Source: Saccoglossus kowalevskii (lineage: Eukaryota; Hemichordata; Enteropneusta; Harrimaniidae). From it: a stretch of DNA of 52,513 nt. Below, piece by piece: positions 1,195 through 52,513 of this stretch. Below the pieces are notes generated by a model that did no database searches, was not told the origin of the DNA, and was given only the letters and a program-made list of their open reading frames with translations. The position numbers and the translations under genes are program-made. The DNA lies in contig NW_003131866.1 in NCBI RefSeq assembly GCF_000003605.2, positions 228,690-281,202 on the forward strand, read 5' to 3'. Within the stretch, counting starts at the first letter, position 1. Each line of letters begins with the position of its first letter.

Positions 1195-1979
1195 ATTTGT
1201 GGAAAGAGTTTTCATCAGCATTTACAGACACTTTGATGTTCTTTGTCTATCCTGCCATTGCTGGTCTAATAGGATAAACAAATATACAGGACTATGTGCA
1301 AAAAGCGGTCTATGCCATTCATGATTTAATGACAAGTGTTCATGATGGCTCGAACTAATTATTAAATTGTCAATTGTTTAATTTCTATAATTACCACTCC
1401 ACTGCTAGTCTGTTGAATTATTGTCTGTAGAAATTTGGAGTTCAGTTAACCTTGCGTATGGTGCATGATAATTGTAATACGTTTTCTCTGTGGTTGCCAC
1501 CAGTGTCTTTTTTTCTTATCTACAGTTAATTTGCAAAACAAGCTACAAAATATATTATTTAACAATAGATAATACATTGTATATAGCCTAATAGTTGGTT
1601 TGGCTGCTCCTTAACATTGCATTCAGTATTCCAGACAACGAATATGATTTACTCTCGACATGGAAAATTCTTTGAGAAAACTGATTATGTAAATTGTTAT
1701 TGAGTAAATGTACATAATGTATCCATTATAAACAATGTAGACCGGGCTAAAAAACACACCTTTAGGTTTGTTAACATCAAACATTATTTTGATTGTGTTC
1801 TCATTATAAAAACATGGTAAGACGAAGACATAGTAAAAACTGTGCACTAATAATCTTGCAATCCCAATTACCTGCAATCTTTCGTTGAGTTATTTACAGC
1901 ATGGTAGCTGATGGATTTCTCAAATCATAGTTTTAGAACAATTCAACAATCTATGTGTAATGTGCCTCTAGATTGGGAT

Positions 1980-2021
1980 TGTTTTAGTCACAGTCCCTCT
2001 ATAGAGGGACTGTGTTTTAGT
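1980..2021. repeat. Tiny perfect palindrome flanked by 9-bp direct repeats
   Basis: The core 1989-2014 is a perfect inverted repeat (arms CACAGTCCCTCTA and TAGAGGGACTGTG). The 9-mer TGTTTTAGT occurs at 1980-1988 and again at 2013-2021, sharing its first two bases with the palindrome end. This is what a very small foldback insertion with a target-site duplication would look like. A transcribed hairpin in the WBP2 3' flank is the other reading. Confidence 0.5.
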
Positions 2022-2457
2022 GTATATTTTTGTGTGGTGGAGTTGATGTAATTGGTATTGATTGGCTAATATATCAATATTTGCATGTTTTGCTCTTTAT
2101 AACTAGCACTTTTTTTAATGATATTAAAAAAAAAAAACTATTGTACATATTATATTAATTAAAGAGCAAAGTATCTGTATGGAAGTAAAAAAATGCATCT
2201 AATGTAATATACATGCTGTAAAGATATTCAAGCTGCGTCTGTTATTGTGTTTGCTGAAGTATCTGGTAAAATGAAGCATGATTCTAAAGGTGAGAGACTT
2301 GGTGGCATAGGAAACATTCACCATAGTGACCACGTTCCTTCCTTCTCAATACCCCCACATGTTTTTTGGTAGATTCATCCCAAAAGCCATTGATACCTAT
2401 CCTTAGGGACGGAGCTACATGACAGAACGTTCTACATTGCTAAGACGCACACCATTG

Positions 2458-3060
2458 ATGGATGGATTTCGTTCAAACTTGGTTACATATATTAGAAATT
2501 ACAGGTTCCTGATGCACATCATTTATTTTTCAGATCGGATTCAAAATGGCTGTCTGGCGGCCATTTTGTTTTAATGAATGGGCTTCTAGACCCATATCTC
2601 CGACTTGTTTTGACTGATTATATTCAAATTTTAAATATTCATTATACATCATGTCATAGATAAACAGGTATATTGGTTTGAGTATCCTATTCAAAATGGC
2701 TGAATGGTGGTCATTTTTATGCTAAAAAAAATCATCAAATATCTAGCATTTCTGGCATTTATGGATGGATTTCGTTCAAACTTGGTACATACATTAGACA
2801 TTACGGGTCTCTGATGCACGTCTTTTTATTTTTCAGATTGGATTCAAAATAGCTGACTGGCAGCCATTTTGTTTTAATGATTGGGCTTCGAGAGCCATAT
2901 CTCTTAAAAGCTTTGACTGATTATATTCAAATTTTATATGTTCATTATACATCATGTTATATATATACATGTATTCAAAATGGCTGATTTTGAATGCTGT
3001 TCCAGAGCAATATCTCTCAATATGAACAAATATTTGTTTGACGATCAGATACAAATGTCA
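2458..3060. repeat. Two tandem monomers of a B-like interspersed repeat
   Basis: Two diverged copies of a roughly 300-bp unit start at 2458 and 2761. Each begins ATGGATGGATTTCGTTCAAAC and contains a TCAAAATGGC...GGCCATTTTG-type palindrome near 2545-2573 and 2848-2875. The same motifs recur in the cores of the B elements at 6481, 16765 and 31251. No element termini are recognisable, so this is an old internal fragment. Confidence 0.65.
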
Positions 3061-6047
3061 ATAATTTTATTGTTAAAAAAAAATAATATTCCTGACATGG
3101 TTATATTCCAGCTATATTACTATAAACAAAACTATATATCTTAAATTTTATAACTAACTGGGACTGTGCCATGCATGGCTTGTTTAGCTCTAGATGTTTG
3201 TGGGTTTAAAACGACTTGGCCCACGGCACTCGTCACTGGCTAAAAGATTGTAAGAGTACAAAAAATGGCATTGGAGAGTAAAGTTTTGATTTAAAATCTC
3301 TCAGTTGAGTCTCAGTTCACAGTTGCATCAAGTCCCACATGGGCACCAGTGTTAGGATATAGATCCTAGTACTTGTAAAGTAAGCTATTTCGCCAGATTA
3401 CCAGTCTGAGAGTTTAGTGGCACATCTGGAATGCTGCTTATTTCTGAATTGGAGCAAATTTGGATGGTTATGCCCATTGATTTCATTCAATACTCTAATA
3501 TCGAATGATAGTAAGGTAAGTATGAGTTTAAAATTATCCTCAGGAGAAATTGAAGATTTGGAGTAATTTGACTAAATTTTTCATGTACACAATAAAGAGC
3601 ACTGAATGTAGAAAACACACAAAATAAATTTTAATCAAAAATATTATATGAACATGGGTCTTCTCAATATAAACCAGAAAACAATAAAAATGCCACTTGA
3701 GAAGATAAAGTGTATTTTCCTTGGTATTAGGTAAATAATTTTTTTTTGAAGATGTATAAGGTCAGAATGACATCAAAGTAGGTTCAATACTTGGCTGTAA
3801 CAATAATTACAACTAAAAACACTCAGAATTTGCATTGATGTGAAGGGGGCACTTCATTATGGTGTCTGCAAAAAACCTTGTATCTGGTTAGAGTTAATAT
3901 TGCTAAAGAGCCCTCGTATGACCATAACTGCATTATCCATTCTCGCATACTAAACACAACAGATACATTTTATAAATATTTAATATTAATACAAACCATT
4001 TACAACAAAATACAACATTTACAAAGTTTGAAAATTTAAGTATCCATTATTAATAGATCTGCATTTATTAAAAAAAACAATAAGTGTTGCAGCCGACTTT
4101 TAGAAAGGTCATACACTTTCTATCATCTCTTTAAGCTACACTGATATATAGCATGCAGAAGGGAATACAAACCCAAAACTATCGAACCAAATTTTCTCAT
4201 TTCATCAATTGGCAATGTGTTAAATTCAATTAAATTTAATGTCAACACCATCCTTTCTCAGTATAAATTGCCACACATTATTGCATGTAATGTGATCTTG
4301 GCAGAGAGTGCAGTACAAATTACAGTCTCTTGTTTGAATTTGAATCTATATTCATGAAAATTCATAGATAAACAACCTCTAAGGTATACAAAAGAAGATG
4401 CTTGTTTTGTTTTTAAATACTGAAGTTGCTGGAGAGTCTAGAAAAGCTAGAACTGTCTCGCCTCTCATGTCAATGAAACATCAAGCTCTGTCTGCAAATA
4501 AAACACATCCACTTACTGGAGACAAAACTGTAGACATACTTAATAAATGCTTCCCAAGAAACAAGCAATTGACCAGGTCCAGTTGTCACCTATCAATACA
4601 ATACAAGTAGTCACCAAAGTGCTTTGTACAAATCTTTGGTAATATTAAAATGTAAAAATTAAACTACCGATAAGTGAAATATTATTGTGAATGAAAAAAA
4701 GGATCTTTACCAGCAGTGTAGCAATAATGATATCAGCTTACCATTACAAATCGTTGCATTTGAATTATCAATATTGGTTGGGTTGCTTTTTGATTCAAAG
4801 TAACAGTTAATTATAAACATTAATGTACACACACAATATAAAATGGTAAAATATTAAAACTAAAAACACAAATTTAAATATCAGTAGTCACTATCAATAA
4901 ATGATTATTAATAATATATGCTTGCACTAAGGTACTATTATGTTCAATGTACGTTCCTCGTTTAAACAAAATTTGTCTATGCATTCAGTTTTAGAATAGC
5001 AGAACCAGGATTTAGATGATTTCTTAGCTTTAGAATTTGGCCATTTGAATTGGATCACAAGTGCATGTGCATATGTATGCCAAGATGAATGATATTATGT
5101 GTCATCAGTCAAGACTTGTCAACTTTATTGCATCTTTAGAAATTCTATCCGTATATAGCAATAATAAACAAAAAAAAAACTAAATAACAATGAAATAAAA
5201 TTATTAGATATGAGTCAAGAAATACATTCAGTTAACCAAACTTGCTACCAGTCGATTTTGAATCCGATCTGCAAAATGAAGTACATCAAGGTCCCATAAT
5301 GTTGAATGCATGTTTGAATGATATATGAGAAAATTATATACAGGGTACCCACTTAACATTTCAATTTTCTCTAGAATTGTAAAAAATCTTAATTCACTGT
5401 AGTTTAATTGTTTTTGAAAGAAAACACATTAACAGGATAGAAATTGTTTTCTTGTTTTTTCTTCTTAAATTAATAAATTTTTTAATCATTTGAAGTGCTG
5501 TTTCAAAATAATAAATGGAGATGGCATGTGTGAAAGTTACAGCAACAGTCTCTGAACGTGGGAAAAACACATACTGTATTTGCTCTACCGGTATTAGTAA
5601 CATGTGTGCTTACATAAAGAATGTTCATGTATTTAAGATCAAAACAAGTAATATTTAATTTATCTTGTGTAAAATAAATGCAATACTTGGTTTTTTTTTT
5701 CCTTTATTGGAGATGCACTTTTGATAGAGCAAATATAGTATATGCAGCTTGCAACACAGAAAATCATAGACAACATCAGAAAATAAAAACATGAGAGAGA
5801 ATAATAAAAATTCTCTCAACTCTATGCATACACATAACATTTCATTTACTGTGTGGAACAAGAGTAAAGCACCTTGTGCATTTCCACAAAAATATTTCTC
5901 AGGCTTTTGCAAAGTTTACCTTGAAAAATAACTGACATTACAGATTAAAAAAAATAGCAACTACCCCCCGGTAGTTGTATCATAAAGTCATGTACAAATA
6001 GTTGTTGGAATGGGTGAGGTATAAGAAAATCTGGTGCAGAAGTGGCT

Positions 6048-9000
6048 TTATGCATAAAGTTTAAACTGCTCATTGACTTCAGTCACCGAGTCAACACCAA
6101 ACTTATCTTCACTTTCTTTCATCAAGGAATAAATTGCTGCCAGTTGACGACGTTGAGTTCTGTGGTTAAAACAAATAGCAAAGGTCATTGAATCACAATA
6201 TTACCGGCATCGAATTGTATCCAAGATACATGTACTGTTGACCAACTTAAACTTTGGAACTCTGAGGACACACAATTTCAAAGTCAAAATTGTCATAAAG
6301 ATACCATACTACCTAACAAAGTTGAGAAAGAAATATCTGGTCGGCATATTGGATATACTAAACAAAATATTTAATTCTTTGTACTTGTATACATATGTAT
6401 ATATCATCTGTGCGACACTTAACTTCAAAACTTCAGAAAAATAGTAACTCGGAAATTAGGAATTGATGCAACTATAGACAAACAAGTCATTGAAAATGAC
6501 ACAGTTCCCATTAAATTTTTGAAAGTTCTCTTTGTGCTCGTCATATTAAAGCGGAGGGGTTGTCGCGAGCGTGTCCTTGAAACTTGAGTTCCGTGTAGTA
6601 GTAATATGGCCAAAAATAAAAACAGCCGTTATTCGGCCATCTTTGATCTGATTATGAAACACACTGATATGTATGATGTATGTGCCAAATACAAATGAAA
6701 ATGGTACATAAATTGTGGCAATATAGTAGTGAGGCCAAAAAGTCAGATGGCTGTCAATCGGCCATCCTTGACCAGATTTTGAAACAAATTGTCATGGACA
6801 TGCATCCTAACATGTATAAAGTACATGTATGTGCCAAATTTGAATGAAAACTGACAGAGCACGTCCAAGATACCGCATAAAAAAAACAAAAACAAGATGC
6901 CTGCCAGACAACCATCTTTGATCCAATTGCGAAATAAATTGTCATGGACATGTATCCTAACATGTATAATCTATGCACCAAGTTTGAATGACAACTGACA
7001 AAGCATATCCAAAATACAACATTTGCAAAAAACAAGATGGCTGCCAGTCAGCCATTTTGAATCGAATCGCTAAACCACTGCATGTACACTGCACTGCACA
7101 TGCAAAGAATGAACGAAATCGGTCCAAGGGATTGTGAGATATGACTCCGGACGAAGGCACCGACGCACAGACAGACGGACGGAGATCGAATTATAAGTCC
7201 CCGTTTTCGGACTTTGTCCGAACAGGGACTAATAAATAAGCTTTACTTACTCTCTTTCTTCTTCAATCTGATTAGGGGTCATTTTTTTCTCAATCTGTTT
7301 TGTAATATATTTAGCTCTTGCTTGTTTCACTTTGCCCTGTATATGTTCAGTATATCCAACAGGATCAGAAATGGCAGGATGTTCAGCTTGTATTAAGGGG
7401 TGGATGTCAGATGAATCAACAATTCCATCATCGTTGTCTCCTTTTCCAGTTTTCATAGTTTCTTCTCCCTTCTCATCAACAACCTCTTTTTCTTCAGTAC
7501 TCTGAAATATAATGATAAACAGCTACCTAAGTAAAATTATATTTGTATATGGTTCTGTATTTTATGTAAGATCATCATGGACGATGAATTGTCCATACTG
7601 CCCGTAACAGGATATGAATGATACAGTTTCACAGATTGTGTGCGTTTAAGTGTTGAAAATATTCTGCTGTCACATCACACATATTGAAATTTCTGAAATG
7701 TGCATCATCACAGCATGGTGTCACAAATAGGTGCAGAGATTGCGTCATACAAGGACAAGAATTATTGGGATACTGTAAAGGGGGTAATTATTCACTGGGT
7801 TTTAATTTAGCTTATTTCGCTGACTGGAAAAATGCGCTAAATTAAAACACAGTGAATATGTAAAATTTAGCATAGAACACATTATCTAAATGACGAAACC
7901 GTGAATTTAAAACCCACTGAATATGTCTAAAATGGTAAATCAGTGAAATTTAAACCCAGTGAAAATTAGTCATTTTACAGTAACACAGACAAATAGATAA
8001 ATAGAATCACATTGATGAGTTCATCCACATGAAATGGATGGAGGTATGTAAATGTTCCAAATTAGAAGCACAAACAACTACTAAAAAATGTCTAGTGTTT
8101 GAGAAATGCCCCAACAACTTTGTTATTTTGTGACAGTAAAATAATGACCATACAGAGATAAATTGAATACATTTTCTGCTCATGTTTATGTCTGGGGCAC
8201 GAGGAGATGATGAATTTTTGGGGGTTTGGTTGCCATATTTGATACAAGAGGTACAAATTACCACAATTTTGGGTATTTGTTTTTCATGAGTGCTTCAACT
8301 TATCAACTTGACATTCTGTATAAAACATGTATGGCCAAAGTTTCATCTTGGATGAGAAAATGTATGTGCAAAACAAGGTACACACCAACTTCAGACACTT
8401 TAATACAGTAATTAATCAAGACATTGAAATTGCATTGTCATCAATGGAAGCTTGAGATATATATATAAAAAGGTAAAGGGAGCATAGAGCTCTATTTATG
8501 TTAAGGCAAACACGTACAGTTATATATGCTTTCAATTTGTTACCGATAAGGTAATTTGACAAATGCTCACAAACACACACCACACATGTCTGTTAAATAT
8601 GCATAAAGTATGTATATATATATTAATAAATAATTATGTTGAATTATGAGATAAATAAACGATGAGGATTTTTCAAATTAATAAAATGTGGATGTAAGAA
8701 TGTATTGATTTATTTTCAAATACCAGTTACACATATGCAAATTATAGTTATATGTTACTGACCAGTCAGTATGATGTGTATGTGGTTGAATAATCATGTG
8801 TTCAACAATACATGAGGATTCTCATTATATTCTAACTGCAGGGTATATCAATTCACCTACAGTGTAACAATACAGATACCAAAATTTGCACTGCAGTCTC
8901 CTTGACTGGTGTACAATGAATGATTTAGCTACTGAGCTATTCTCCCTAGGTATTCTCATAAACCAAATTAAAATGTTCGTTAACATGCTTGTTAACAAAA

Positions 9001-12000: not shown

Positions 12001-15000
12001 TACATTCTAGATAATTATGCTCAGTGATGTAAAATTGAAGCGATGACTGAATGAACAAACCTAGGCTGGCGAAGATGTATCTGGAAGTGTACACATTTGT
12101 TGGAAGTGAAAAAAATATTCAATGTAATGACAAAAATTGTAAAATGCTGTGGAATTTCTTTTGCATATAAAAATATACTAGCAATTTTCTATTAATGGTT
12201 TATTCAAGTGGGCAAAATATAATGTACAGAAAGATTGCCCGTATACACTGAAAAGTAAGCAACCGACAGCCTGTATAAAAGGGGGGCTGTGATTGGCTGT
12301 TACTTACGCGAGATTTGAACGGGACTTACATAGGCGTCGGATCAGATGTAGGTAGGGCGGAATTAAAAAAAAAATCACAAAATCAAAATCAAAGTAAAAT
12401 AATAAAATAAAATGGCATTAATAACAAATATAATAAAAAATAAAATTAAAATAAGTTTATAGCCAAAATAACTAAAGCCTGTACACTACATCAGATTTTA
12501 ATCAGATTGAGGGAAAGCTAGCCATCTCAAGAGGAAAATTATTTATATATCAGGTATATGAAGGCAGCCAATTCATACGTGATAACAACATTGACATGTA
12601 AATAAACAGAGTACCCTAAGCAAGTATGCAAGGCTCTGAAATAGTCCATTATAATCACTATGGCAACTAGATCATTAAGCATGAATGCTATGATAGTCAA
12701 GCCTACAATTTTTCATGAGATCAGAAAGAGTCTTTTCATGTGTAGTACCATATTTTTATTTAGCCACATATATTTTTACTGGATTTATTAAAATTATAAT
12801 GATTTTCTAGGCCTCATTAAAAATATTATGCTCATACTAAATTGACTGTAATAAAGGAACTAACTTTTAACATTAGATTTGATTTTTGCTCAAAACATAA
12901 ATTTGGGTTGAGTCATTTATAATAAAATGACATAAAAAACACTTGGAGGGGGGGGGGGCACTAGATTTTATTTTTGCTCATTATTTGAAAACAAGCAGCC
13001 TATCAGCTGAGATAGCTCTGCTGTTAGCAATGAATATTTTAATTTTGCGGTTTTTAACAAGAAGTCGAAAATATCACTTTTTACTAAAAATGACAAAAAT
13101 ATTCCGCAAAATTAGAGAATTAAAGATATCATCATGAAATAAACAAATCTGAGAGAGGCCCACCCAATGTACATATACACCAAGTATCAAAGCATTCAGG
13201 CTTGTAGTTTTCAAGAAGAAGTCGAAAAAGTAAAACATTGACACGGATGACGACGACGGATAATCACTCATATGATAAGCTCTGCTCGACAAAGTCGACA
13301 GTATTTTAAAGTACATAACAAGCATAGTATACAATATTCATAACCTATGTCATATGAAAGATACATACTTGCTTTAATTTTTCCGACTTCTTGGATACTG
13401 CTGTTTCTGTTCCCATACTCGCTATTTGTCTTTTTGTGTGTTGCATCAGTAGAAAAAATGTTGATATTATGACCACAAAAAGTGCCACAACACCAGACAG
13501 CAGATATGAAAATGGACTTGTTGTTATGATATCAATAAGTGAATCTAACAAAGAAAAGAAATGATTCATTATTTAATTAACAAGAAGACTGATCCTTTCA
13601 AATCTTGTTTCAATCAAGTGAACAAAACAAAACAAGAATCTGTAATACTCGATGTGACATAACAAAAATCCATGAATGCATTTTACTAATCTTGCATTAT
13701 TCAATAAATAATCATTGGACAGTCAAATTAATTTATCACTCGTCTATGAAATTTGAAGTTATATAGTTCTTGCAGCCCAAGCTTGTGAGTATAAGTTTAA
13801 TAGCGTTACGACCAAAGACTGCAAATCCAGTCAATAAACGTTTTATCACATACCTTATACAATGTAGGTTACCGCGGTAAATTAAAAATAAATGCAATTG
13901 TTTACTACTACTACTAGCTTTTAATTTATTTCAGTACTAATTTTATTTCTGCCATTTATTCAAATGTTCACAGTGTGGATTGCTGTTTGTTCCTGAATCT
14001 ACAACATCAGATGTGCAACTGTTCTAACCCTTTGAAACCAGAACCGTGACCAGATAGTTGCATGTATTTTTAGCCAATGTGATTGCTATTTTATAAAGAC
14101 AATCAAGCCCCACATTAACAGCAAAATTCTAATACAAATTTTAGGTCTGGTCTGGTCTGGCTGGAAGTTTGTAACCCTTCAAATATCTAAGAGTAATATG
14201 GTCACACAAGCTGTGCTTTTATACATTTTACAAAGTAATAACTAAAACATGATTAGATTCATTAACAACAATATACAAACCTTTTTTCAACCTGTTGTAT
14301 CATAGTGTTACTTTTTGGAAATATTACTGATACCGGTAGTTTTCAAAGTTATAAATTAGTTCATTGGGAAATTGGCCACTATTCTTTCACATTTCTAATT
14401 ATCAGCACAATGTGTAAAGAAGATGGAAAACGAGAACAATAATTCTACCTCAGAACTTAATTTCAATATCATCCAGCTATTGAGAAAGCGTTTTTAACCT
14501 CTGTATTATTCTTTTTTTTATCATTCCACTAAATACAATGTTACGTTGCAGTAACACTGTCATCCCAACCCCACCACCTCAAGTGATACAGAACAAATAT
14601 GGGAGATTAGATTGGTTTCACCAGCAAATTTTAACCAGGGGTGAACCATTGACATGTTTGTTGTTCCTACATCACTGTATCTGAGCATGACAATTTTCAT
14701 ATAGTTTTCCTCTGCTAAAATCTATCCACTATTTCCTAAATTTGCCTGATGTACTTTAGCTATTCGTATTCTACCATTGATCTCACAGTAAATATTTGAT
14801 CTTGTATACCTAAAAGTACATTATCACACAGTATAACATGGAAACAGAGATTTTCCTGACACATTAAATATTTATTAAACCAATTTCCTTGTGCATCATT
14901 GACACATCAGCAAATCATATAGTGATATACTTTGATAAAACACATCTTACTATAGTTACAAAACAGGACTCAAAATTCAGATCACGATCATCACCTAGAT

Positions 15001-16764: not shown

Positions 16765-17817
16765 AACAAGTCATTGTCAATGACACGTCCCCGTTCCGTT
16801 CATATTTGAGTGACATATACATTCAAAGCAGATCATGACCGAAATACACCTACATATGTACAACACATTGTACTAAATCTGAACAAAATCCATCCATGCA
16901 TGACTGAGATCCGGTTCCGGAATTGTGAAAATACGTGATTTTGATGTATTTTCGGCCTTAAAATGGCCATCATTCAGCTATTGTTAATCAGATCATGAAA
17001 CAAATGCACATATCTTTTTATTTGTAACATGATGTACCATGTGTGTGTGAAGTTTGAACTTGATCAATCCAGACATGTCTTGGATACGGATCCAGAACTG
17101 AATTCTTTACAAAATGGCCGCCAGTCGGCCATTTCGAACTTGATCCGAAAAAAAAAAGACGTGCATCAAGGTCCTATTATGTTTAATGTTTGTACCAAAT
17201 TTGGACAAAATCCGTCCATGCATAACTGAGATCCGGGTCCGGAATGGTGAAAATGTGCGATTTCTATGCATTTTTGGCCTTAAAGTGGCCGCCATTTGGC
17301 TATCGTTAATGAAATCATGAAACAAATGCACATACATATTTGTGACATGATGTACCTTGTGTGTGTGAAGTTTGAACTCGATCAATCCAAGCATGTCTCA
17401 GATACGGATCCAGAACTGATTTCTTTAAAACAAAATGGCCTCCAGTCGGCCATTTCAAACCCGATCCAAAAAAAAAAATGACGTGCATCAAGGTCCTATT
17501 ATGTTTAATGTATGTACCAAATTTGAACAAAATCCGTCCATGCATAACTGAGATCCGGGTCCGGAATGGTGACAATGTGCGATTTTGATGCATTTTCGGC
17601 CTTAAAATGGCCGCTATTCGGCTATCGTTAATCGGATCATGAAAAAAATGCATGTGCATATGTCCCATATAATGTGTGATGTATGAGTGAAGTTTGAACT
17701 TAATCGGTCCATGCATGTTCGAGATACAGGTGATCACGGACGCACGCACGTACGCACGCACGCACACAGGGCAAAACATAAGTCCCCGTTTTCGGACTAT
17801 GTCCGAACGGGGACTAA
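16765..17817 (+). mobile_element. Family B HINE-like element, copy B2
   Basis: 5' end AACAAGTCATTGTCAATGAC (16765) followed by CGTCCCCGTT, which complements the 3' palindrome. The core has two well-preserved monomers of about 310 bp (16900-17220 and 17220-17540) plus a partial one, each with a GATCCGGxTCCGGAATxGTG start and an AAAATGGCC...GGCCATTTC palindrome. An ACGC microsatellite follows at 17735-17765, then the 3' palindrome 17780-17815 (AGTCCCCGTTTTCGGAC / GTCCGAACGGGGACT) ending CTAA. It has no coding capacity; the long minus-strand frame here is repeat DNA. It lies in TRMT1 intron 1. Confidence 0.78.
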
Positions 17818-18229: not shown

Positions 18230-21200
18230 ATGGCTACTCAAAGTCCAGAAACACAGACAATCAATGGGAAAGAGTACTATACTGTGACTGAAGGAAAAGC
18301 TGAAATTCTTTTTCCATCTTCAAATGAAGTATTTTATAATCCAGTACAAGAATTTAATCGAGATTTGACGTAAGTAACGGGCGTGGCTTGAAATCTTTTT
18401 CTGTGATAAATATTTTATATTTTTTTTAATTTTTTGTCAGTCTTGGAGTTGAAACAATTTTAACCAGTTTTGCCACATTTATTAATTCATTTATATAACT
18501 AATGTAACTTATTCAAACAACACCTAGGTAGCATTTATATGCCACTATCATAAATATGTTGGAATAAAAAAAATACAGTGAGACAACAACTCTAAAAAAC
18601 TGGTTGTCAAGTGAGACAACCACTCTAAAAAACTGGATGTCCAGTGAGACAACCAGTCTAAAATATTTCATATTTCAGAACCCTGTGGACTAAATCCTTT
18701 CATTATTTGCATGTGCCTAGTATTTTATTAGGGACATATGCAGTGAATTACTGATTCAATCCAAAATGGCTGACTGGCAGTCATTTTGTTTTTGGAAAAT
18801 GTGGTATCTAATGCATGCTTAGTCAGTTTTTGTTCAAATTTGGTACATACATTATACATGTTAGGATACATGTCTTTGGCAATTTGTTTCATGATCGGAT
18901 AAAAGATGGTTGACTGGCAGCCATTTTTTTGTTGTTGAAAATGTGGTATCTTTTGCATGCTTTTTCAGTTTTTGTTCATATTTGTTGTGTTCATGACAAT
19001 TTGTTTCATAATCAGATCAAAGATGGCCGACTGGCAGCCATCTTGTTTTTTGACCTCACTATTATATCTCCAAGGTTTATTAACCATTTTCATTCATATT
19101 TGGCATATACATCATACATATTGGAGTACATGTCCACAATCACAATCGGTTTAAAGATGGTACTTTATTTTTGGCATGAATAATATTTCCCCTAATTTCA
19201 GCTGGGACTATGTCGATAACAGTGACTTAATTTGGATCAGTATATCATGTATTAACAATTAGAGAAGAAATTAACAAAAAACTTACTTTACGAATGTATT
19301 TTGATGCTTTATATTTCTGCGTCTCTGTTCTAGGATTGCTGTTATTGGGTTATATGCCGAGGAGTTTTTAAAAACACAAGACATACAAGGTAATGAATTG
19401 AAAAGCCACTAGGGAATGCACGTACACTCACTGTTTTGGTAACTATCTACCCTCGTGATGTAAATAATGTGGTATTGCCCTCATAACAATCCATCGATGA
19501 GTTGAACACATTGCATGCTTCTCAGAGATTATCATTTTATCGTTTTAATACTCCTGAAATAGAGTTAAAAAATTTAACTATGATTACTCAGTGCAGTAAC
19601 TGGGAAAGTTTATGTGTTAGTTCCACGGTTCTAAAACAAAACCAAAGAAAATTCAGAAAGTGCACATTGCAGATTAACATAGAGCAGCACAGAGTCTCAT
19701 CGTCAGTTCAGTTTTTCCCACGAACAATAGCTCTTAATTGAGCTCACTTTTATTGTCTTGTTAGAACTGGCATACCGAAATGAGTAGTTATGAATATAAG
19801 AGTAAATCATTCAAACGAACATTGAATACAATGGCGTTTTGAGCGCTTATCCCGAGCTAAGCATTCACGCACATTTCATTAGCTCCTGCTAAGGAACTGA
19901 ACCGGGTCTTAAAGTCATCGTGTTTAAATTATTCTTTGTTACTGGCTGCTCACTATCCCAAAATATATCTAGTTTTTGGATTATGAACTTAATTTGAATG
20001 TATTTTCTTATCAAAGGCCTTCAAAGAAGAGTTTATATTACACAATGTGGAAACTCATTGTTTCCATGGTGACAAAAGTTGACTTCGTCATATACCGTAG
20101 TAAAGATTTCAAAAGATTAATATATTACACATTTTTATGGCATTTTAGTGAAGTATCCTGGTGACAAAGATGAAGAAACTCAAAACAAAGAATCAATTAA
20201 TAGGAAATCAACTGAAAAGTTGCATGATACATCAAATGTAAAAGCAGCCAATCAGAAAGATGATACATCAACTGTAAAACCAACCAATCAGAAAGATGAT
20301 ACATCAACTGTAAAACCAACCAATCAGAAAGATGATATATCAACTGTAAAACCAACCAATCAGAAAAATGATACATCAACTGTAAAACCAACCAATCAGA
20401 AAGATGATATATCAACTGTAAAACCAACCAATCAGAAAAATGATACATCAACTGTAAAACCAACCAATCAGAAAGATGATGACAAACACATAAAGACATT
20501 ACAACCTGGAGAATTGTGTGAGGTGAGTGAACATTTAAAGTTGCATTGTTAAAAATCTAAGTCATGTTTTAGGTACATATCTGAACCATACATTATTATT
20601 GGCATAAAAATATAAATTTGTAAATACTTTTTAGTTTTTGCAATGTGCACAATCCCCACTAGTTCAAAAACAGGCTGATACAAGGATGAGCATATATCAT
20701 GCTAATTTGGAGAAACTGTTTTATCTGTCAAAAACGTTTTATTTTTTGGTATTTATTTTTTTCTAATCGATTATAAAAATGCATTAATCTTTTCAGGAAG
20801 TGTTTGAATATATATTTGAATATGGTTATTACCGTTTGTACTCTTCAGGGTGGACGCAGAAACATTCACACTTGATCAAAATATTTTTATCACACATATA
20901 CTGTATTAGTGCAATGCAAACAATTAATACTTTATTTTCATCAAATCCTATTGAGTTTCATAAAAATGACGATGTCTTACTCGAGAAATATTATTTTGGT
21001 TCTGTTCATTCCTCATGTGACCTCTCAGATTTGTTGATTTCATGATGATAACTTTAATTCTCTAATTTCTCTTAATATTTCTGTCATTTTGGGTTAATTA
21101 CAAGACTATTTAAGTATATCTGGATATTCGTGTTGTCTTGAAAAAGGCTAGACTGATTGATTCTTTTCTCATGTAACTCAACTACTGTAAAAACTTTGTA

Positions 21201-27200: not shown

Positions 27201-30200
27201 GAAAGCTTAGATATATGCGAATACAGTAGTGCATATGCTGCACCAATATTTAAGGAATTACCTGCTGACCAATTTCGCTATTGCAGTTTTATTTGACTAT
27301 TCTGACTTTAAAACACATGAATATCTAAATTACACAAGACATTTCTATACTGTAGACAGAAAGAATGCGTCATATTATTAGCTCCACTGTTGACTTTGTT
27401 GAATGGAGCTCTTCATATGAGTGATTGTCAGTTGTTGTTCGTGGCAACTTTTTACTTGTTGTATATATACCTTAGATAGACCTCACTTAGATTTGTTCAT
27501 TTCATGATATCTTTAATTCTCTAATTTTAATATTTTGTAATTTTTGGTAAAAAGTTATATTTTTGACCTCTTGTTGAAAACCGCAATTGATTGATTTGAT
27601 ATTATATATAAATCTACTACAGACCTCACTCAGATTTGTTCATTTTGTGATATAATATCTTCAATTCTTTAATTGAAATGTGCATTATTAACCACAGAGC
27701 TATCTCAGCGAGGCTCCTTGTTTTTATTATGTGCCTTTTAGCAACCATCAAATAATTAAGACATGCTACTGACAATCTTATTGGATAAATTTGACACGCT
27801 GTAATTAGAAAACTAAAGCATATATTGTACATTTTCACAAAATAATGCTCACAAAAACACATAGATCCGGAAATCCTGCAAAGTGCAAAATCATTTTTAG
27901 ATTTCTTTGTCTTCTGAAATTGTCCTTCAGGAAATATGGCATATGCAATACCATATTCATCTATATCCAAGCTTAAATGGTAGAGACTACGTCATAACAG
28001 TGAATTGTCATGATTTATTCTTTGCTACATAGATTGGTGGACCCATGTGGGCTGAACCCTTACATAATATGGAATTTGTTACAAAATTATTAAGAAGAGT
28101 GGAAAGGAACCCTGGGAGATTTTTAACATCAGACAGAATTATTGGTTTATTGAATGTTGTGAGTGAGGTAAGGTTTTTTTTTGGATACGAGAAAATTTTC
28201 TTAGTTTTGGTTGCTTTTAGTATTATTTATACAGACTGTAATTGTGTTTGTCTCATTATAGGAGTTACCAGACTGTCCACTGTATTATATTGTTGGTAAA
28301 ATGTGTAATGTATTACACTGTAGTTGTCCGTCACTGATCCAACTAAGGTAAATGACCAATATGTATAGTGTTTTAATTTTAATATTTTCCATATTTTCAA
28401 TCCATGTACCACTTGACCAAAATTATTTGTAATACACATAGTACTTGCTTGGCCAAAATTACTTGTAATCCATGTAGTACTTGGCCAAAATTACTTGTAA
28501 TTCATATGTAGAACTTGGCCAAAATTACTTGTAATCTATGTAGTACTTGGCCAAAATTACCTATAATCCATATGTAGAACTTGGCCAAAATTACTTGTAA
28601 TCCATATGTAGAACTTGGCCAAAATTACCTGTAATCCATGTAGTACTTGGCCAAAATTACTTGTAATCCATGTAGTACTTGGCCAAAATTACTTGTAATC
28701 CATGTAGTACTTGGCCAAAATTACTTGTAATCCATGTAGTACTTGGCCAAAATTACTTGTAATCTATGTAGTACTTGGCCAAAATTACTTGTAATCTATA
28801 TGTAGTACTTAGCCAAAATTACTTGTAATCCATATGTAGAACTTGGCTATAATTACTTGTAATCCATATGTAGAACTTGGCCAAAATTACCTGTAATCCA
28901 TGTAGTACTTGGCCAAAATTACTTTAATCTATGTAGAACTTGGCCAAAATTACTTTAATCTATGTAGTACTTGGCCAAAATTACCTATAATCCATATGTA
29001 GAACTTGGCCAAAATTACTTGTAATCCATATGTAGAACTTGGCCAAAATTACTTGTAATCTATATGTAGTACTTAGCCAAAATTACTTGTAACCCATATG
29101 TAGAACTTGGCTATAATTACTTGTAATCCATATGTAGAACTTGGCCAAAATTACCTGTAATCCATGTAGTACTTGGCCAAAATTACTTTAATCTATGTAG
29201 AACTTGGCCAAAATTACTTGTAATCCATGTAGTACTTGGCTAAAATTAAATGTAATCCATGTAGAACTTGGCCAAAATTACCTGTAATCCATATAGTACT
29301 TGGCCAAAATTACTTGTAATCCATATGTAGAATTTGGCCAAAATTACTTGTATTTAATGTATGCATGATGTATTTAATTTTTATATACTCCAGGACATCT
29401 AAATAGTTTTGTATTTTTGTACTGTGCCTTTGAATTTTTTAAATAATTTCTTTTGTAGATCTGCAATACTGCATGCTGGGTATGAAGTTTCCCTATCGCA
29501 TGCCAGTCCAGAAGCGATTAAGACCAGTGCACCTAGTGATGTTATATGGGATATTATGAGAGCATGGGTGAGTCAACTCCAGTCCTACAAATATTAAACC
29601 TGTACATTATATTTTTTGTGTGAATATTTTTGTCCTTTTTGGTAAAATTGCTATTTTCTACTTTTTCTCAAAAATTACCAGCTTAATTTGTTTGACATTT
29701 GGTATGGTTATCAACAAGATGATAACAATTGTGATTGCCATGGCAACAAGCACCCTGTTTATAAATAACCATGATATTGTGGTAACAATAAACATAACGA
29801 ATAATGTATTGTATTGAACATTATATAATTTGTTTTGAGAAAGACACTCAAAATGTAGCAGAGCTATTTTCACCGAGAGGTCACCTGTCTACCTGTCTAC
29901 TTGTCTGACTTGTCATACATTTGATTATAGGTCAAATTGCACCCTGTGAAGCAAGAGAGACTGAAAGAGGGCAACCCAGCAACTAAAATACTTAGTAAAG
30001 AACCAAGGTGAGACTTATTTGGCTTTAAAAATATATCAATTGCTCATGTATTCATTCTAAGCCTGCTTTACATGTAATAAGTAAATTGGCATCATCTGAG
30101 AATAATTGAGACTTACTGTAGTACATGACATGCATTCTACTATTGTAGTTGAGTCTCTTATAACTTGGAATTAATCTGTGCTTGTGTACTTGTGTCGACA

Positions 30201-32841
30201 AATGTCTAATAGCAGTTTGGAATTAATCTGTACTTGTGTAGACAAATGTCTAATAGCAGCTTGGAATTAATCTGTGTATATTATTTGTAAACTTATGCTG
30301 ATTATATAGTAACATATTTTCTCACTAGTGTCTGCAGAATGTGTATTGAATCGCTTTGTCATTTGTCAGTGTCAACAAAAAGTAACATTGGTGTTGAATG
30401 TTACCAGAATATATACTAAATAAATAAATATTAATATTTTTTGAGTTTTTCACTTCTTGTATAGATGACGAGGTGACACTACATTTTACAACAGAACTAT
30501 TTCTTATCGTTGATTTCATATGTGCTCTTATCGCTAGTTGTAAATTTCTTGTATTTCTGAGGTCATTATTTATCTTTCAGCATTGAAGTTTCATTCACAA
30601 CATTACCCAGTGCAAATCCACGATCCAGAAAGTTTAAACTGGTTAGGTTTCCAGAAAACCCTCAGAAATATTGGGGGCCTAAAGCTAGAGCAAAGAGAAA
30701 GTAAGTTATGACTTGAGAACTATTCTTTCGTTACATCATTATTTTGAACCTGAATCCAGTCCAGTGGACAGTAAATAAATTTGCTTTCTACATGTAGCTA
30801 TAATTCATACTACATGTATCTTAATGTGTCTGCTATTGTCACATTAAATGATAAAGGTTTTCTTTGGCAGAGGTGGCAGTGAACCTATCATTGAAAAAAG
30901 AGCAAGATTACAAGGGAAACGAGGACCAGTTGAGGGCTACATCGAGAGGGACTTGAAAAGTTATCCTTGTAAAAGATTTAAAAAGGTATTCAGATAAATG
31001 CACTAATTTCTTGAGTCACAGGAAGTTTTTTTGGAATCAGTGCATAAGCCCTTCTGATATAGAAACACAGCTTACTGTGGGCCACCTTTGATGTTCAAAA
31101 CTAAAACATGTAAAATACTCCCTCATGCCCCTCAAATAGTGTTCTTTACAGTCAGTGGATGCGATTGATGGGAGGAAATGGAACAGTGTTTGGGGGACAA
31201 AACAAGTTCTCTCGCTTTCATCAATATCTTGACAGTTATTTGTGTGCTTATTCGTCCCCGATCGGACGAAGTCCGAAAACGGGGACTTATAATTCGGTCT
31301 CCGTCTGTCCGTGTGTCTGTGCGTCTGTCCGGAGTCATATCTCAGAATCCCTTGGACCGATTCCGTTCATTCTTTGCATGTGCCTAGTACTTTATGTGGG
31401 ACATATGCACATGCAGTGGTTTAGCGATTCGATTCAAAATGGCCGACTGGCAGCCATCTTGTTTTTTGAAAATGTTGCATTTTGGACATGCTTTGTCAGT
31501 TTTCATTCAAACTTGGTACATAGATTATACATGTTAGGATACATGTCCATGACAATTTATTTCACATATGGATCGAAGATCGTCGACTGGCAGCCATCTT
31601 GTTTTTTGAAAATGTCATATTTTGGACATGCTTTGTCAGTTTTCATTCAAATTTAGTACATAGATCATACATGTTAGGATACATGTCCTAACCGTCTGTG
31701 AGTTCCTGAGTCTGTCTGACCATCCGTCTATGTGTTCGTCCGTCCATAGTCATATTTCAGAATCCTGTTGACCGATTCTATTCATTCTTTGCATGTGCCT
31801 AGTACCTTATGTGGGACATATGCACATGCAGTGGTTTAGCAATTTGATTCAAAATGGCCGACTGGCAGGCATCTTTTTTTTTTTTTTTTATGCAGTATCT
31901 TGGACGTGCTCTGTCAGTTTTCATTCAAATTTGGCACATACATGTACTTTATACATGTTAGGATGCATGTCCATGACAATTTGTTTCAAAATCTGGTCAA
32001 AGCTGGCCGACTGACAGCCATCTGACTTTTTGGCCTTTCTACTATATTTCCACAATTTATGTACCATTTTCATTCGTATTTGGCACATACATCATACATA
32101 TCAAAGATGGCCGAATTACGGCTGTTTTAATTTTTGGCCATATTACTACTACCGGTACACAGAACACGTGTTTTGATGAAAATAAACAATCTGTTGTATA
32201 CGCCACTTGGAACTCAAGTTTCAAGAACACGCTCGCGACAACCCCTCCGCTTTAATATGATGAGCACAAAGGGAACTTTCAAACATTTAACGAGGACTGT
32301 GTCATTTTCAATGACTTGTTCTATGAAGATTACCTCTGATCACGCCATCCCCAGATGATTGCCAATGTTCTTGTTGATGAAATCAGCCAGTCAAATTTTC
32401 ATTAAATAGCGAACACTTTAATACGTACACAACACATAAATGTACCGGTATATTTAGAGGTATCATATATAAAAACAGGCAATGTGAATGTATATAACAT
32501 CGTGACTGATGTCTTTGAATAGTATTATGTGGAAAATTGTGTCACATGTATTTGATCATTTCGCATGTGACATCAATAGAATCTTGTCACACTTGTCATG
32601 CATTGTGTTGCTGGCATTATTATCAGTGACAGTTAACCCTAATATTAAAGAAACAAAAACAAAGATTTGTGCAAACTTTATGCATAATTATTGCTTTTAT
32701 AGACTGGGATGGCTATATTCAATAAATAAATAAATCAATAAAACCCATTTTGTTTTATTTCAGGGAAAGTGTGATCTTGGAGATAGGTGTAAATATTCTC
32801 ATGCTGATTCTATGTGCCATAGCAGAGATAACGAAGTGTAA
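18068..32841 (+). CDS. TRMT1: TRMT1, tRNA (guanine(26)-N(2))-dimethyltransferase
   Basis: Coding exons: 18068-18369, 19334-19389, 20149-20522, 22454-22641, 22797-23025, 23806-23954, 25380-25463, 26646-26715, 28033-28167, 28262-28347, 29459-29567, 29931-30007, 30581-30700, 30871-30985 and 32764-32841. All borders are GT/AG and the phases join to 723 residues (669 from the inner ATG at 18230). The enzyme uses S-adenosylmethionine to dimethylate G26 of nuclear and mitochondrial tRNAs. Seen here: family start [23 protein letters not shown]-binding [13 protein letters not shown] (about 251-263); catalytic DLDPYGSP (324-331); two CxxC pairs (441/444 and 476/479) forming the zinc site; family block [16 protein letters not shown]-terminal CCCH finger C693-x7-C701-x5-C707-x3-H711. 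Odd feature: exon 3 of the list encodes a 12-residue tandem repeat. Identification is firm; the N-terminus is less so. Confidence 0.95.
18560..18665. repeat. Three tandem copies of a ~33-bp unit
   Basis: The unit is about GTGAGACAACCACTCTAAAA followed by AACTGGxTGTCxA. Three copies lie in TRMT1 intron 2, the last one degraded. Confidence 0.7.
18720..19170. repeat. Family-B core fragment
   Basis: Three monomers carry palindromes of the AAATGGCTGACTGGCAGxCA type at 18770, 18905 and 19023, with TTTTxGTTCAAATTTGGTAC and ACATGTTAGGATACATGTC linkers like those in B3. No termini are recognised. Intronic in TRMT1. Confidence 0.65.
20226..20500 (+). repeat. TRMT1: Coding 36-bp minisatellite in TRMT1
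   Basis: About seven units of 36 bp encode [12 protein letters not shown]-like 12-mers in frame. The units vary at positions 5 and 7 in the order DD/T, DD/T, DD/I, ND/T, DD/I, ND/T and a diverged end, so a two-unit block was itself duplicated (72-bp higher-order period). It sits between the conserved VKYPGDK segment and the start of the methyltransferase domain, a region of low conservation in the family. The reading frame is kept. Confidence 0.92.
21200..21510 (+). mobile_element. tRNA-derived SINE with poly(A) tail
   Basis: An A-box-like GTGGTTTAATGGTTAGTG (21211-21228) and a B-box-like GGTTTGACTTCC lie at tRNA-like spacing, followed by an unrelated body and an A18 tail at 21492-21509. ATCTGATG at the 5' side (21200-21207) and ATCTGGATG after the tail may be an imperfect target duplication. 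Lies in the TRMT1 intron after the minisatellite exon. Confidence 0.65.
22005..22270 (+). mobile_element. tRNA-derived SINE (second type)
   Basis: The head CTGGTAGCATAGTGGTTGTC (A box) and AAGTTCAAATCATT (B box, about 22068-22081) are at tRNA spacing but cannot fold as a tRNA cloverleaf. The body includes CAACCCCTACCCTGGGTGAG and ends near a CCATTTGATAAAGAGATGGC hairpin. It differs from the SINE at 21200. No clear tail or target duplication. Confidence 0.55.
23280..23700. repeat. Degraded family-B-like repeat
   Basis: TRMT1 intronic fragment with GAAAATGGCTGACTGGCAAC (23445-23464) and related linkers. No termini. Confidence 0.5.
23955..25379. other. TRMT1 intron, no additional feature seen
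   Basis: AT-rich intron between the exons ending KKSA and starting SKRAMVYNC. Only microsatellites such as AATAATAATA (24628-24652) are seen. Confidence 0.5.
25600..26570. mobile_element. Foldback-type element with TAGGCCCC/TAGGGG arms
   Basis: The ends are GGGTCACTTT (25611) and its inverted partner TGAGTGACCC (26561-26570). The left arm has four TAGGCCCC motifs (about 25710, 25740, 25783 and 25823) and the right arm five TAGGGG motifs (about 26399, 26438, 26472, 26502 and 26538), so the arms are opposite in strand. A second inverted pair lies in the middle: TTGTAATCGAAGAAACAAAA (from 25935) against the region ending CGTCGATTACAAT (26048-26085). The GC content is much higher than the flanks. 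It lies in a TRMT1 intron. No transposase. Class uncertain. Confidence 0.5.
27378..27725 (-). mobile_element. Family A HINE-like element, copy A2
   Basis: The minus-strand 3' palindrome lies at 27378-27412 (TTAGCTCCACTGTTGACTTT / GTTGAATGGAGCT). The core has AGATTTGTTCATTT and TTTTTGGTAAAAAGTTATAT monomer motifs. The 5' hairpin GAGCTATCTCAGCGAGGCTC with CTTGTTTT closes it at 27725. More diverged than A4. Sits in the TRMT1 intron before the IGGPMW exon. Confidence 0.68.
28400..29352. repeat. Minisatellite, ~32-bp unit, about 30 copies
   Basis: The unit is about TAGTACTTGGCCAAAATTAC followed by TTGTAATCCATG (31-33 bp), with sub-variants (GTACTT/GAACTT; CATG/CATATG). Groups of variant units recur in the same order (for example around 28797-28935 and 29045-29190), which points to duplication of multi-unit blocks. 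It fills the TRMT1 intron between 28348 and 29458. Confidence 0.93.
30150..30275. repeat. Short tandem repeat of a ~58-bp unit
   Basis: GGAATTAATCTGTxCTTGTG...GACAAATGTCTAATAGCAG occurs two and a half times in a TRMT1 intron. Confidence 0.65.
31251..32320 (-). mobile_element. Family B HINE-like element, copy B3
   Basis: The minus-strand 3' palindrome at 31255-31290 (GTCCCCGATCGGACGAAGTCC / GAAAACGGGGAC) has a mutated CTAA end (CGAA). Next come a GTCCGTGTGTCTGTGCGTCT microsatellite and three or more core monomers with CAAAATGGCCGACTGGCAGC palindromes (31435, 31570 and 31850). The 5' end is GTGTCATTTTCAATGACTTGTT, closing at 32320. The far end is a close match, in reverse, to the left end of B1, including a GCTCGCGACAACCCCTCCGC segment. 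It lies in the last TRMT1 intron. Confidence 0.75.
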
Positions 32842-37217: not shown

Positions 37218-37697
37218 AAAACAAGCAGCCTATCGGCTGAGATAGCTCCGCACATTTCAATTAAAGAACTGAAGACACTAGAAAATGAACAATATGTATA
37301 GTATCAAAGCAATCCGACTTAGTTTTTAACAAGAAGTCGAAAATATTACTTTTTACCAAAAATATTCACCAAAATTATAGAATTAAATATATTACAAAAT
37401 GAACAAATCTGAGAGGTCCACATGTAATACCTATACATGTAATATCAAAGCAATTGTGGTTTTTAACAAGAAGTCTAAAATATTACTTTTTACCAAAAAT
37501 ATTCACCAAAATTAGAGAATTGAAGATATCAACATGAAATGAACAAACCTGAGAGAGGTCTACCCAAGGTACATATACACCAAGTATCAAAGCATTCAGG
37601 CTTGTAGTTTTCAAGAAGAAGTCGAAAAACTAAAACATTGACGCGGACAATCACTTATATGATAAGCTCCGCTCGACAAAGTCGACAGCAGAGCTAA
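37218..37697 (+). mobile_element. Family A HINE-like element, copy A3
   Basis: 5' end AAAACAAGCAGCCTATCGGC with the GAGATAGCTCCGC hairpin, then two to three core monomers (AAGAAGTCGAAAATATTACT and AATTAxAGAATTxAAxATAT motifs). The 3' palindrome GCTCCGCTCGACAAAGTCGA / CAGCAGAGCTAA ends in CTAA at 37697, followed by a poly-A run. Just downstream is a 13-G tract (37807-37819). Confidence 0.75.
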
Positions 37698-50741: not shown

Positions 50742-52080
50742 AATAATGGTAGCAAATAGGTGTCAACGCGATCTAGTCTAGGTGTCAACCGGCGCACGCC
50801 GCCCGGTACTCAACATTACAGTCGGTCAGTGTACGCGGATTACATTGCGAAGGTCGCAAATAAAAGCAGCTTTAACTACTATTTCCATGTAGTGCTTTTT
50901 GTTAGCTCCGCTGTCGACTTTGTCGAGCGGAGCTTATCATATGAGTGATTGTCCGTCGTCGTCATCCGTCGTCGTCGTCGTCGTCGTCCGTCGTCCGTGT
51001 CAACGTTTTACTTTTTCGACTTCTTCTTGAAAACTACAAGCCTAAATGCTTTGATACTTGGTGTATATGTACCTTGGGTAGACCTCTCTCAGATTTGTTC
51101 ATTTTGTGATGATATCTTTAATTCTCTAATTTTGGTGAATATTTTTGTCATTTTTGGTAAAAACTGATATTTTCGACTTCTTGTTAAAAACCGCAAGTGC
51201 AATTGCTTTGATATTACATATATAGGTACTACATGTGGACCTCTCTCAGATTTGTTCATTTTGTAATGATATCTTTAATTCTCTAATTTTGGTGAATATT
51301 TTTGTCATTTTTTGGTGAAAAGTGATATTTTCGACTTCTTGTTAAAAACCGCAAGTCCAATTGCTTTGATACTACATATATAGGTACTACATGTGGACCT
51401 CTCTCAGATTTGTTTATTTCGTGATGATATCTTCAATTCTCTAATTTTGGTGAATATTTTTTGTCATTTTTGGTAAAAAGTGATATTTTTGACTTCTTGT
51501 TGAAAACTGTAAGTCCGATTGCTTTGATATTACATATATAGGTACTACATGTGGACCTCTCTCAGATTTGTTCGTTTTGTGATGATATCTTCAATTCTCT
51601 AATTAATTTATTTTGGTGAATATTTTTGTAATTTTTGATAAAAAGTGATATTTTCGACTTCTTGTTAAAAACTGTAAGTCCGATTGCTTTGATACTATTC
51701 ATATTGTTCATTTTCTAATGATGTCTTCACTTCTTTAATTGAAATGTGCATTGCTAACAGCGGAGCTATCTCAGCCGATAGGCTGCTTGTTTATTATTCA
51801 TTCAAGTGTTTATATCAAAAAGATTGTTCAGTCATTCACATAGAATCGATCTTTGCTCTTCACACTGCACAGGAAACGTGACAGCACAATAATTTAATAA
51901 ACGACCATGACCAGCCAGCACACTCCACATACCATGTGAAAATTATTTTTTGTTTCAGTAAAATTAGTATGAACCCATGGTCTGCGATTAAAGAATCATA
52001 GAATTATAATTGTAGTCAGTAAAAACGGGTGGTCACAGAAGGATCACAGATCGCGTTGACACCTATTTGCTACCATTATT
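50742..52080. mobile_element. Element with perfect 33-bp TIRs, carrying a nested A element
   Basis: 50742-50774 and 52048-52080 are perfect inverted copies, beginning AATAATGGTAGCAAATAGGT and continuing GTCAACGCGATCT. Between them are a GC-rich stretch (50775-50860) and the complete A4 element, with about 250 bp on the far side. Without A4 the element would be roughly 450 bp. No transposase is seen. The target duplication is unclear, and B4 begins right at its right edge. Confidence 0.6.
50902..51793 (-). mobile_element. Family A HINE-like element, copy A4 (best preserved)
   Basis: Minus-strand element. The 3' palindrome at 50902-50936 (TTAGCTCCGCTGTCGACTTT / GTCGAGCGGAGCT) is followed by a GTCGTCGTC microsatellite (50950-51000) and about four core monomers of about 150-165 bp (each with TTTCGACTTCTTGTTAAAAA, GGTACTACATGTGGACCTCT and TTGGTGAATATTTTTGTxAT). 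The 5' hairpin GAGCTATCTCAGCCGATAGG with CTGCTTGTTT closes at 51793. Noncoding. Monomers are more alike here than in other copies. Confidence 0.82.
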
Positions 52081-52513
52081 AGTCCCCGTTCGAACGTAGT
52101 CCGAAAACGGGGACTTATGTTTTGCCCTGTGTGCGTCCGTGTATCCGTGCGTCCGTGATCACCTGTATCTCGAACATGCATGGACCGATTAAGTTCAAAC
52201 TTCACTCATAGATCACACATTATATGGGACATATGCACATGCATTTTTTTCATGATCCGATTAACGATAGCCGAATAGTGGCCATTTTAAGGCCGAAAAT
52301 GCATCAAAATCGCATTTTTTCACCATTCCGGACCCGGATCTCAGTTATGCATAGACGGATTTTGTTCAAATTTGGTACATACATTAAACATAATAGGACC
52401 TTGATGCACTTCATTTTTTTGGGGGGATCGGGCTTGAAATGGCCGACTGGCGGCCATTTTGTTTTAAAGAATTCAGTTCTGGATCCGTATCTGAGACATG
52501 TCTGGATTGATCG
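52079..52513 (-). mobile_element. Family B HINE-like element, copy B4 (cut by window end)
   Basis: Minus-strand 3' palindrome at 52079-52116 (TTAGTCCCCGTTCGAACGT / AGTCCGAAAACGGGGACT), a GTGCGTCCGTGTATCCGTGC microsatellite, then core monomers nearly matching B2 in reverse, including CATTCCGGACCCGGATCTCA and GAAATGGCCGACTGGCGGCC. The 5' end lies past the window. Confidence 0.75.

Follow-up and report, generated by a model that had tools for sequence, protein, structure and literature searches.

Repeat families with unrelated cores share one end architecture and a TTW^T insertion target in Saccoglossus kowalevskii

How repeat families with no similarity in their cores come to carry the same ends is the question raised by a 52,513-base stretch of Saccoglossus kowalevskii DNA (here, the window; 34% G+C, 87 N). 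A preliminary description had placed two such families, A and B, at eight positions and likened them to Helentron-associated elements (HINEs). Copies are indeed present at all eight, several of them decayed or shortened, with four on each strand in the 5'-to-3' sense of HINEs; a further family, C, was recognized beside them. We are highly confident that A, the two types of B (B1 and B2) and C are all HINEs, non-autonomous elements of the Helentron/Helitron2 type that transpose by a rolling circle. The features are as follows.

16767..17817, minus strand: intact B1 element, 5' TTAG at 17817 and 3' CTTG at 16767
17778..17817, minus strand: B1 5' end, TTAGTCCCCG..., subTIR and inverted repeat forming a hairpin (DNA fold)
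17739..17768, minus strand: B1 GTGC-type microsatellite, adjoining the 5' end on its inner side (direct reading)
16868..17652, minus strand: B1 tandem monomers, period 322, 2.4 copies (repeat finding)
16767..16796, minus strand: B1 3' end, subTIR (GAACGGGGAC) followed by GTG, the TCATTGACAATGA palindrome and CTTG
50902..51789, plus strand: intact A element, from the TTAGCTCCGC hairpin at the 5' end to palindrome and CTTG at the 3' end
51013..51697, plus strand: A tandem monomers, period 158, 4.3 copies (repeat finding)
37222..37697, minus strand: shorter A copy, both ends present
12992..~13310, minus strand: decayed A copy with an eroded 5' end (outer limit approximate)
27378..27720, plus strand: decayed A copy
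31251..32318, plus strand: B2 element, B-like ends, core partly different
6483..7232, minus strand: shorter B2 copy
52079..52513, plus strand: B1 copy, truncated by the window end
2445..3182, plus strand: family C, B1-related monomers, 3' end GGGACTGTG-CCATGCATGG-CTTG; left limit arbitrary

Repeat finding in the window showed long inverted matches linking the repeat copies. The cores of A and B are unrelated, as first described (best blastn E values, 0.40 for A against B1 at 16765 and 0.033 for A against B2 at 31251), and B1, B2 and C are mutually related (E values of 4e-13 to 4e-51). By blastn within the window, B1 (16765 and 52079) and B2 (6481 and 31251) share their ends and differ in part of their cores, so that family B comprises at least two related types. 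For the accompanying idea that cores had been exchanged, comparison of A with B gave no evidence, yielding two unrelated cores only. No 5' end of family C was found.

The window and the fetched loci hold other features besides these families. Inverted repeat arms of 144 nt at 11214-11357 and 12366-12509 are 96% complementary and lie 1,008 nt apart; they are perhaps another transposon or foldback. A 36-bp tandem repeat (20224-20480, 7.1 copies) sits inside a 143-amino-acid open frame, and a 60-bp tandem repeat (47689-47870, 3 copies, 98%) lies within an open frame of 209 amino acids. Long minisatellites at 28399-29352 and 49017-49695 have unit periods of 34 and 22 and higher-order periods of 230 and 114, respectively. 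By eye, we take the open frame at 39911-40315 to be a ribosomal protein L10-like piece and that at 22738-23040 to be a TRMT1-like piece. Locus L064 carries an uninterrupted open frame of 766 amino acids (5668-7965), presumably, again by eye, resembling a 7-transmembrane receptor.

Unrelated cores within a single end architecture are confirmed for A and B. The modules are shared as first described, and their 5'/3' orientation is the reverse of that first given. In published descriptions of HINEs and Helitron2, the 5' end has a subterminal repeat that folds onto its complement, and in HINEs a microsatellite comes next; at the 3' end another subterminal repeat precedes a short palindrome. By that convention the palindrome running to CTAA is the 5' end (TTAG...), and the AACAAG side, read as arm, hairpin and CTTGTT, is the 3' end. 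The 5' end thus runs TTAG, subTIR folded as a hairpin, microsatellite (CGTC in A, GTGC/GTCC in B1) and monomers, and the 3' end runs subTIR, short palindrome and CTTG. The palindrome directly before CTTG is CAGCCGATAGGCTG in A, TCATTGACAATGA in B and CCATGCATGG in C. HINE subTIRs measure ~11-15 bp; that of family A, TAGCTCCGCTGT, is 12 bp long, with its 5' copy near the terminus and its 3' copy internal; that of B1, GTCCCCGTTC, has 10 identical bp, or 12 with one mismatch, and the A and B subTIRs differ.

An inverted repeat complementary to the 5' subTIR, forming the 5' hairpin, is present in A, B1 and B2, and as DNA these 5' ends fold more stably than shuffled sequences (z = -6.5 for A, -6.3 for B1 and -2.7 for B2; -15.6 kcal/mol for B1, 17778..17817). 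At the other terminus, the palindrome (~4 bp from the end) follows the 3' subTIR (~20 bp from the end), yet it is weak as an isolated fold, and the 3' ends alone are unremarkable (z = -2.1 for B1, -1.0 for A, -1.6 for B2 and -0.5 for C). A structural scan blind to family, looking for TT plus a hairpin arm and for that arm inverted ahead of a CTTG-terminated hairpin, matched the two intact elements in the window (one appears twice in its output); 60 copies of the window resampled by a first-order Markov model gave no match. Designed with the elements already in view, the scan tests chance rather than discovery; it misses decayed copies and B2.

These ends recur throughout the 572-Mb assembly (4,830 contigs). 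Searches found at least 44 genome matches for B (16765 as query) and at least 53 for A (50902 as query), both lower bounds because 40 candidates were scored for each against first-look totals of 3,056 (B) and 3,746 (A). The B-type 3' end occurs at 495 sites with at most 2 mismatches, and its reversed control at none. We looked upstream of 20 of these 495 sites, taking the first exact matches in contig order with contig C236 left out. B1 sequence is present at all 20; a 5' end was found at 13, giving element lengths of 718-1596, and at 7 it was not. Five of these 7 enter long N stretches and one (L060) lies at a contig end; for L065 neither accounts for the absence. Very long open frames upstream of B 3' ends proved to be mostly N runs and were set aside, and L067 was rejected as a composite element because its unmatched middle is an N run.

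For the target site, 20 further loci per family, mostly full-length matches, were fetched with their flanks; together with one window copy per family they make 42 copies, with constant CTTG ends and, save in one A copy (L048), constant TTAG ends. In B1, the limits at 16767..17817 are sharp ends common to full-length genome copies (90-96% identity). The insertion rule, at first reported as not settled with T as the 3' flank base in several copies, now reads as TTW^T with no A at +2. Upstream of TTAG, T occupies -3 in 41/41 copies and -2 in 37/41, and -1 is T or A in 38/41 (27 T, 11 A and 3 G), one A copy (L048) being excluded for want of a 5' end. Downstream of CTTG, +1 is T in 42/42 and +2 is A in none of 42; both positions carry a mild bias for T because the BLAST queries included T's after CTTG, and the counts are confined to BLAST-found copies because pattern-chosen loci were selected by a TT ending. 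A wider count over all loci fetched agrees, its 3' side being biased for TT by the choice of loci. The rule is stricter than the TT published for Cg_HINEs and for Culex and Drosophila Helentrons. Related published targets are T-rich in mite HINEs and WTT in the DINE-1 of D. yakuba (PMC2374699, PMC4067079), and Helitron-1N1_CRe is described as inserting between TTTT and T/C without duplication (PMC3627910).

Two alternative readings bear directly on these ends and this target. Tandem monomers dominate the cores, which would suit satellite arrays that lack transposase ends and were dispersed through recombination or via extrachromosomal circles; fixed ends and a target rule that holds in 42/42 copies on the 3' side make this scarcely credible. 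Canonical elements of the Helitron1 type are likewise of the rolling-circle kind and have a 3' palindrome near the end. They are described, however, as having a 5' TC, a 3' CTRR, no 5' hairpin and insertion at A^T, against the TTAG hairpin, CTTG and TTW^T found here; TTA^T would also be an A^T site, but A stands at -1 in only 11/41 copies. We consider this reading very unlikely and dropped it on the ends and the target.

Empty sites were sought by joining the flanks of 39 insertions (20 B and 19 A) and matching them against the window and loci L009-L048; within that set 35 of the 39 queries had no spanning match. Four span the joint. In L025, a B element interrupts an A copy in its 5' hairpin region, and the site is intact in other A copies (GAGCTTA^TCATATG); in L038, an A element lies inside another A (CATTT^TCTAATG). 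Both join exactly and without duplication. In L037, where A lies in an A monomer, a one-base gap is needed and no duplication is visible, nor is one in L011, which gave a single weak match (to L048). The clean empty sites thus hold no duplication longer than one T; a one-base T duplication would not show, since the element starts with T and the target contains T. Foldback or MITE elements mobilized by a DDE transposase would account for the terminal palindrome and inverted repeats, but only one side has its inverted repeat at the terminus and the two clean empty sites lack the fixed-length duplication of such elements; on those sites we dropped this highly improbable reading.

What does match is the published anatomy of HINEs: subTIR, inverted repeat, microsatellite, tandem repeats, 3' palindrome, a T-rich target and no duplication. 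Together with the empty sites, this bears out the initial HINE/Helentron-like assignment. Sharp TTAG...CTTG ends, TTW^T insertion and many dispersed copies are established for A and B1, and B2 and C join this group through their ends in the window. Elements of this kind, which depend on a helper, have already been described in oysters and flies. A close likeness by description is to the Cg_HINEs of Crassostrea gigas, with subTIR, inverted repeat and microsatellite on the 5' side, central satellite-like repeats, 3' subTIR and palindrome, a T-rich target and no duplication; a subTIR with one mismatch, as in B1, is usual there, and the target is given as TT rather than TTW^T (PMC7492417). That report describes 11 elements, among them some whose modules are all unrelated in sequence, and its group 3 already combines unrelated cores with one end architecture (PMC7492417). 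Since the comparison is with descriptions rather than consensus sequences, A or B may itself be a Cg_HINE or a close relative.

Other published systems are comparable in part. DINE-1/HINE elements have subTIRs, an inverted repeat, central repeats, a 3' stem-loop, a GTCY microsatellite, a TT target and several subTIR types per genome; autonomous Helentron partners were found there, whereas we found none here (PMC4067079, PMC2374699). In mite HINEs the 3' subTIR is placed ~38-60 bp and the palindrome 8-35 bp from the end, against ~20 and 4 here. Helitron2 elements are described with a 5' hairpin made by the ATIR and a 3' ATIR directly before the 3' hairpin (PMC3627910), and our elements agree in the 5' hairpin, the 5' T and a 3' ATIR ~20 bp from the end (published, ~20-30). 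Helentrons are separated from other Helitron2 elements by an endonuclease, a distinction that the non-autonomous copies here cannot show. The bivalve elements Pearl, DTC84 and MgE, with short arrays of ~160-bp central repeats, are comparable in architecture, again by description (PMC7492417, PMC11136912).

For the helper of these elements, a Rep protein might be sought in the same genome, ideally one bounded by the same ends, as the preliminary description proposed. A PF14214 profile search of the genome gave eight Rep-domain matches at seven places, all above the cut-off, and no link from these places to A or B ends was found, one 5' side being read. At C2261 motif 2 is YRVEFQQCGSPHTH, and at C3364 it is YRVEFQHRRSPHIH; in both, the usual RG is changed and the S is present that Thomas et al. 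give for Helentrons. Motif 2 is near the Helentron form at these two of the four Rep places read and departs from it at C238 and C651, and the PF14214 score of C3452 equals that of C238. A Pfam search of sequence pieces gave DUF6570 and Helitron_like_N, with DUF6570 upstream in C2261. Over the ~2.3-2.5 kb upstream of C2261, the one 5' flank read among the seven places, there is no TTAG hairpin and no A- or B-type end, and this stretch had no blastn match among the fetched loci. Two motif-2 expressions, run in six frames on the window and the loci then fetched, found nothing. In the oyster report, likewise, of 10 autonomous C. gigas elements carrying a Helentron-type motif, not one could be related to Cg_HINEs (PMC7492417).

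Shared ends and a shared target suggest a single enzyme, or closely similar ones, at work on several families. A Rep-helicase acting in trans would nick at the 5' TT and peel off one strand; transfer would stop at the 3' palindrome and CTTG, and the freed strand would be joined to a TTW^T target. The monomers would be cargo and need not be related. Against the HINE explanation as a whole stand the failure to tie a helper to these ends, the weak folds of the 3' palindrome, 3' structures nearer the end than in mite HINEs, the restriction of the empty-site comparison to the window and fetched loci, the mild query bias for T, and the difference between the A and B subTIRs. The last of these (AGCTCCGC.. 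and AGTCCCCG..) favors a variant of that explanation in which each family has its own Helentron helper, TTAG/CTTG and TTW^T being old features common to the enzyme clade rather than signs of one active enzyme. A published rule assigns elements sharing fewer than 11 identical bp of subTIR to separate families, by which A and B are different families and perhaps have different helpers; in D. willistoni, three DINE-1 subtypes with different subTIRs are described, with unrelated cores under a shared architecture. We give separate helpers slightly less than an even chance. The initial claim that one machinery mobilizes both families is, with the ends, the target and the cross-family joints in its favor and the subTIRs against it, plausible.

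Those joints were seen where one element abuts another. At L026, the 3' CTTG of a family C copy is followed at once by the start of a B element, and at L013 an A-like 5' end directly follows a B 3' end; at L012 a few bases separate a C-like 3' end from B, and such pairs are not always exact. The CTTG|TTAG pattern, RCTTGTTAGYYCCSS, occurs at 49 genome sites, against 5 for its control: GCTTG (27) or ACTTG (10) joined to a B 5' end, ACTTG (6) or GCTTG (1) joined to an A 5' end, and 5 others. Some of the 49 may be chance flanks ending in CTTG, since insertion at TTG^T occasionally occurs. With a longer pattern specific to C-to-B joints, the search found 20 sites with at most 3 mismatches, 12 of those with at most 1, and none in the control; 10 of the 27 GCTTG-to-B joints are among them, and this confirmation covers C-to-B joints only. 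Random choice among TTNT sites would give 0.006-2.6 joints for assumed copy numbers of 500-10,000.

We tentatively propose, as a possibility we do not favor strongly, that resident HINE 3' termini (palindrome-CTTG^T) are preferred landing sites for other HINEs, across families, because a shared Rep recognizes them all. Families would then chain head-to-tail with no base between, forming composite units that bring unlike monomers together. The joints may instead be copies of a few composites that arose by read-through past a 3' terminator. Use by one family of another's sites fits a shared helper and separate helpers alike, and tandem insertions of Helitrons have been reported previously (PMC5148889).

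This analysis adds two clean empty sites, the TTW^T rule and cross-family joints, with no claim that the rule or the joints are new to the literature. The class gains a four-base target rule where oysters and mites have been described as TT or T-rich, and a named genome in which to look for the helper still missing for such HINEs. Through the joint counts one can test directly whether a single enzyme serves several families, and how satellite-like arrays of different origin become neighbors.
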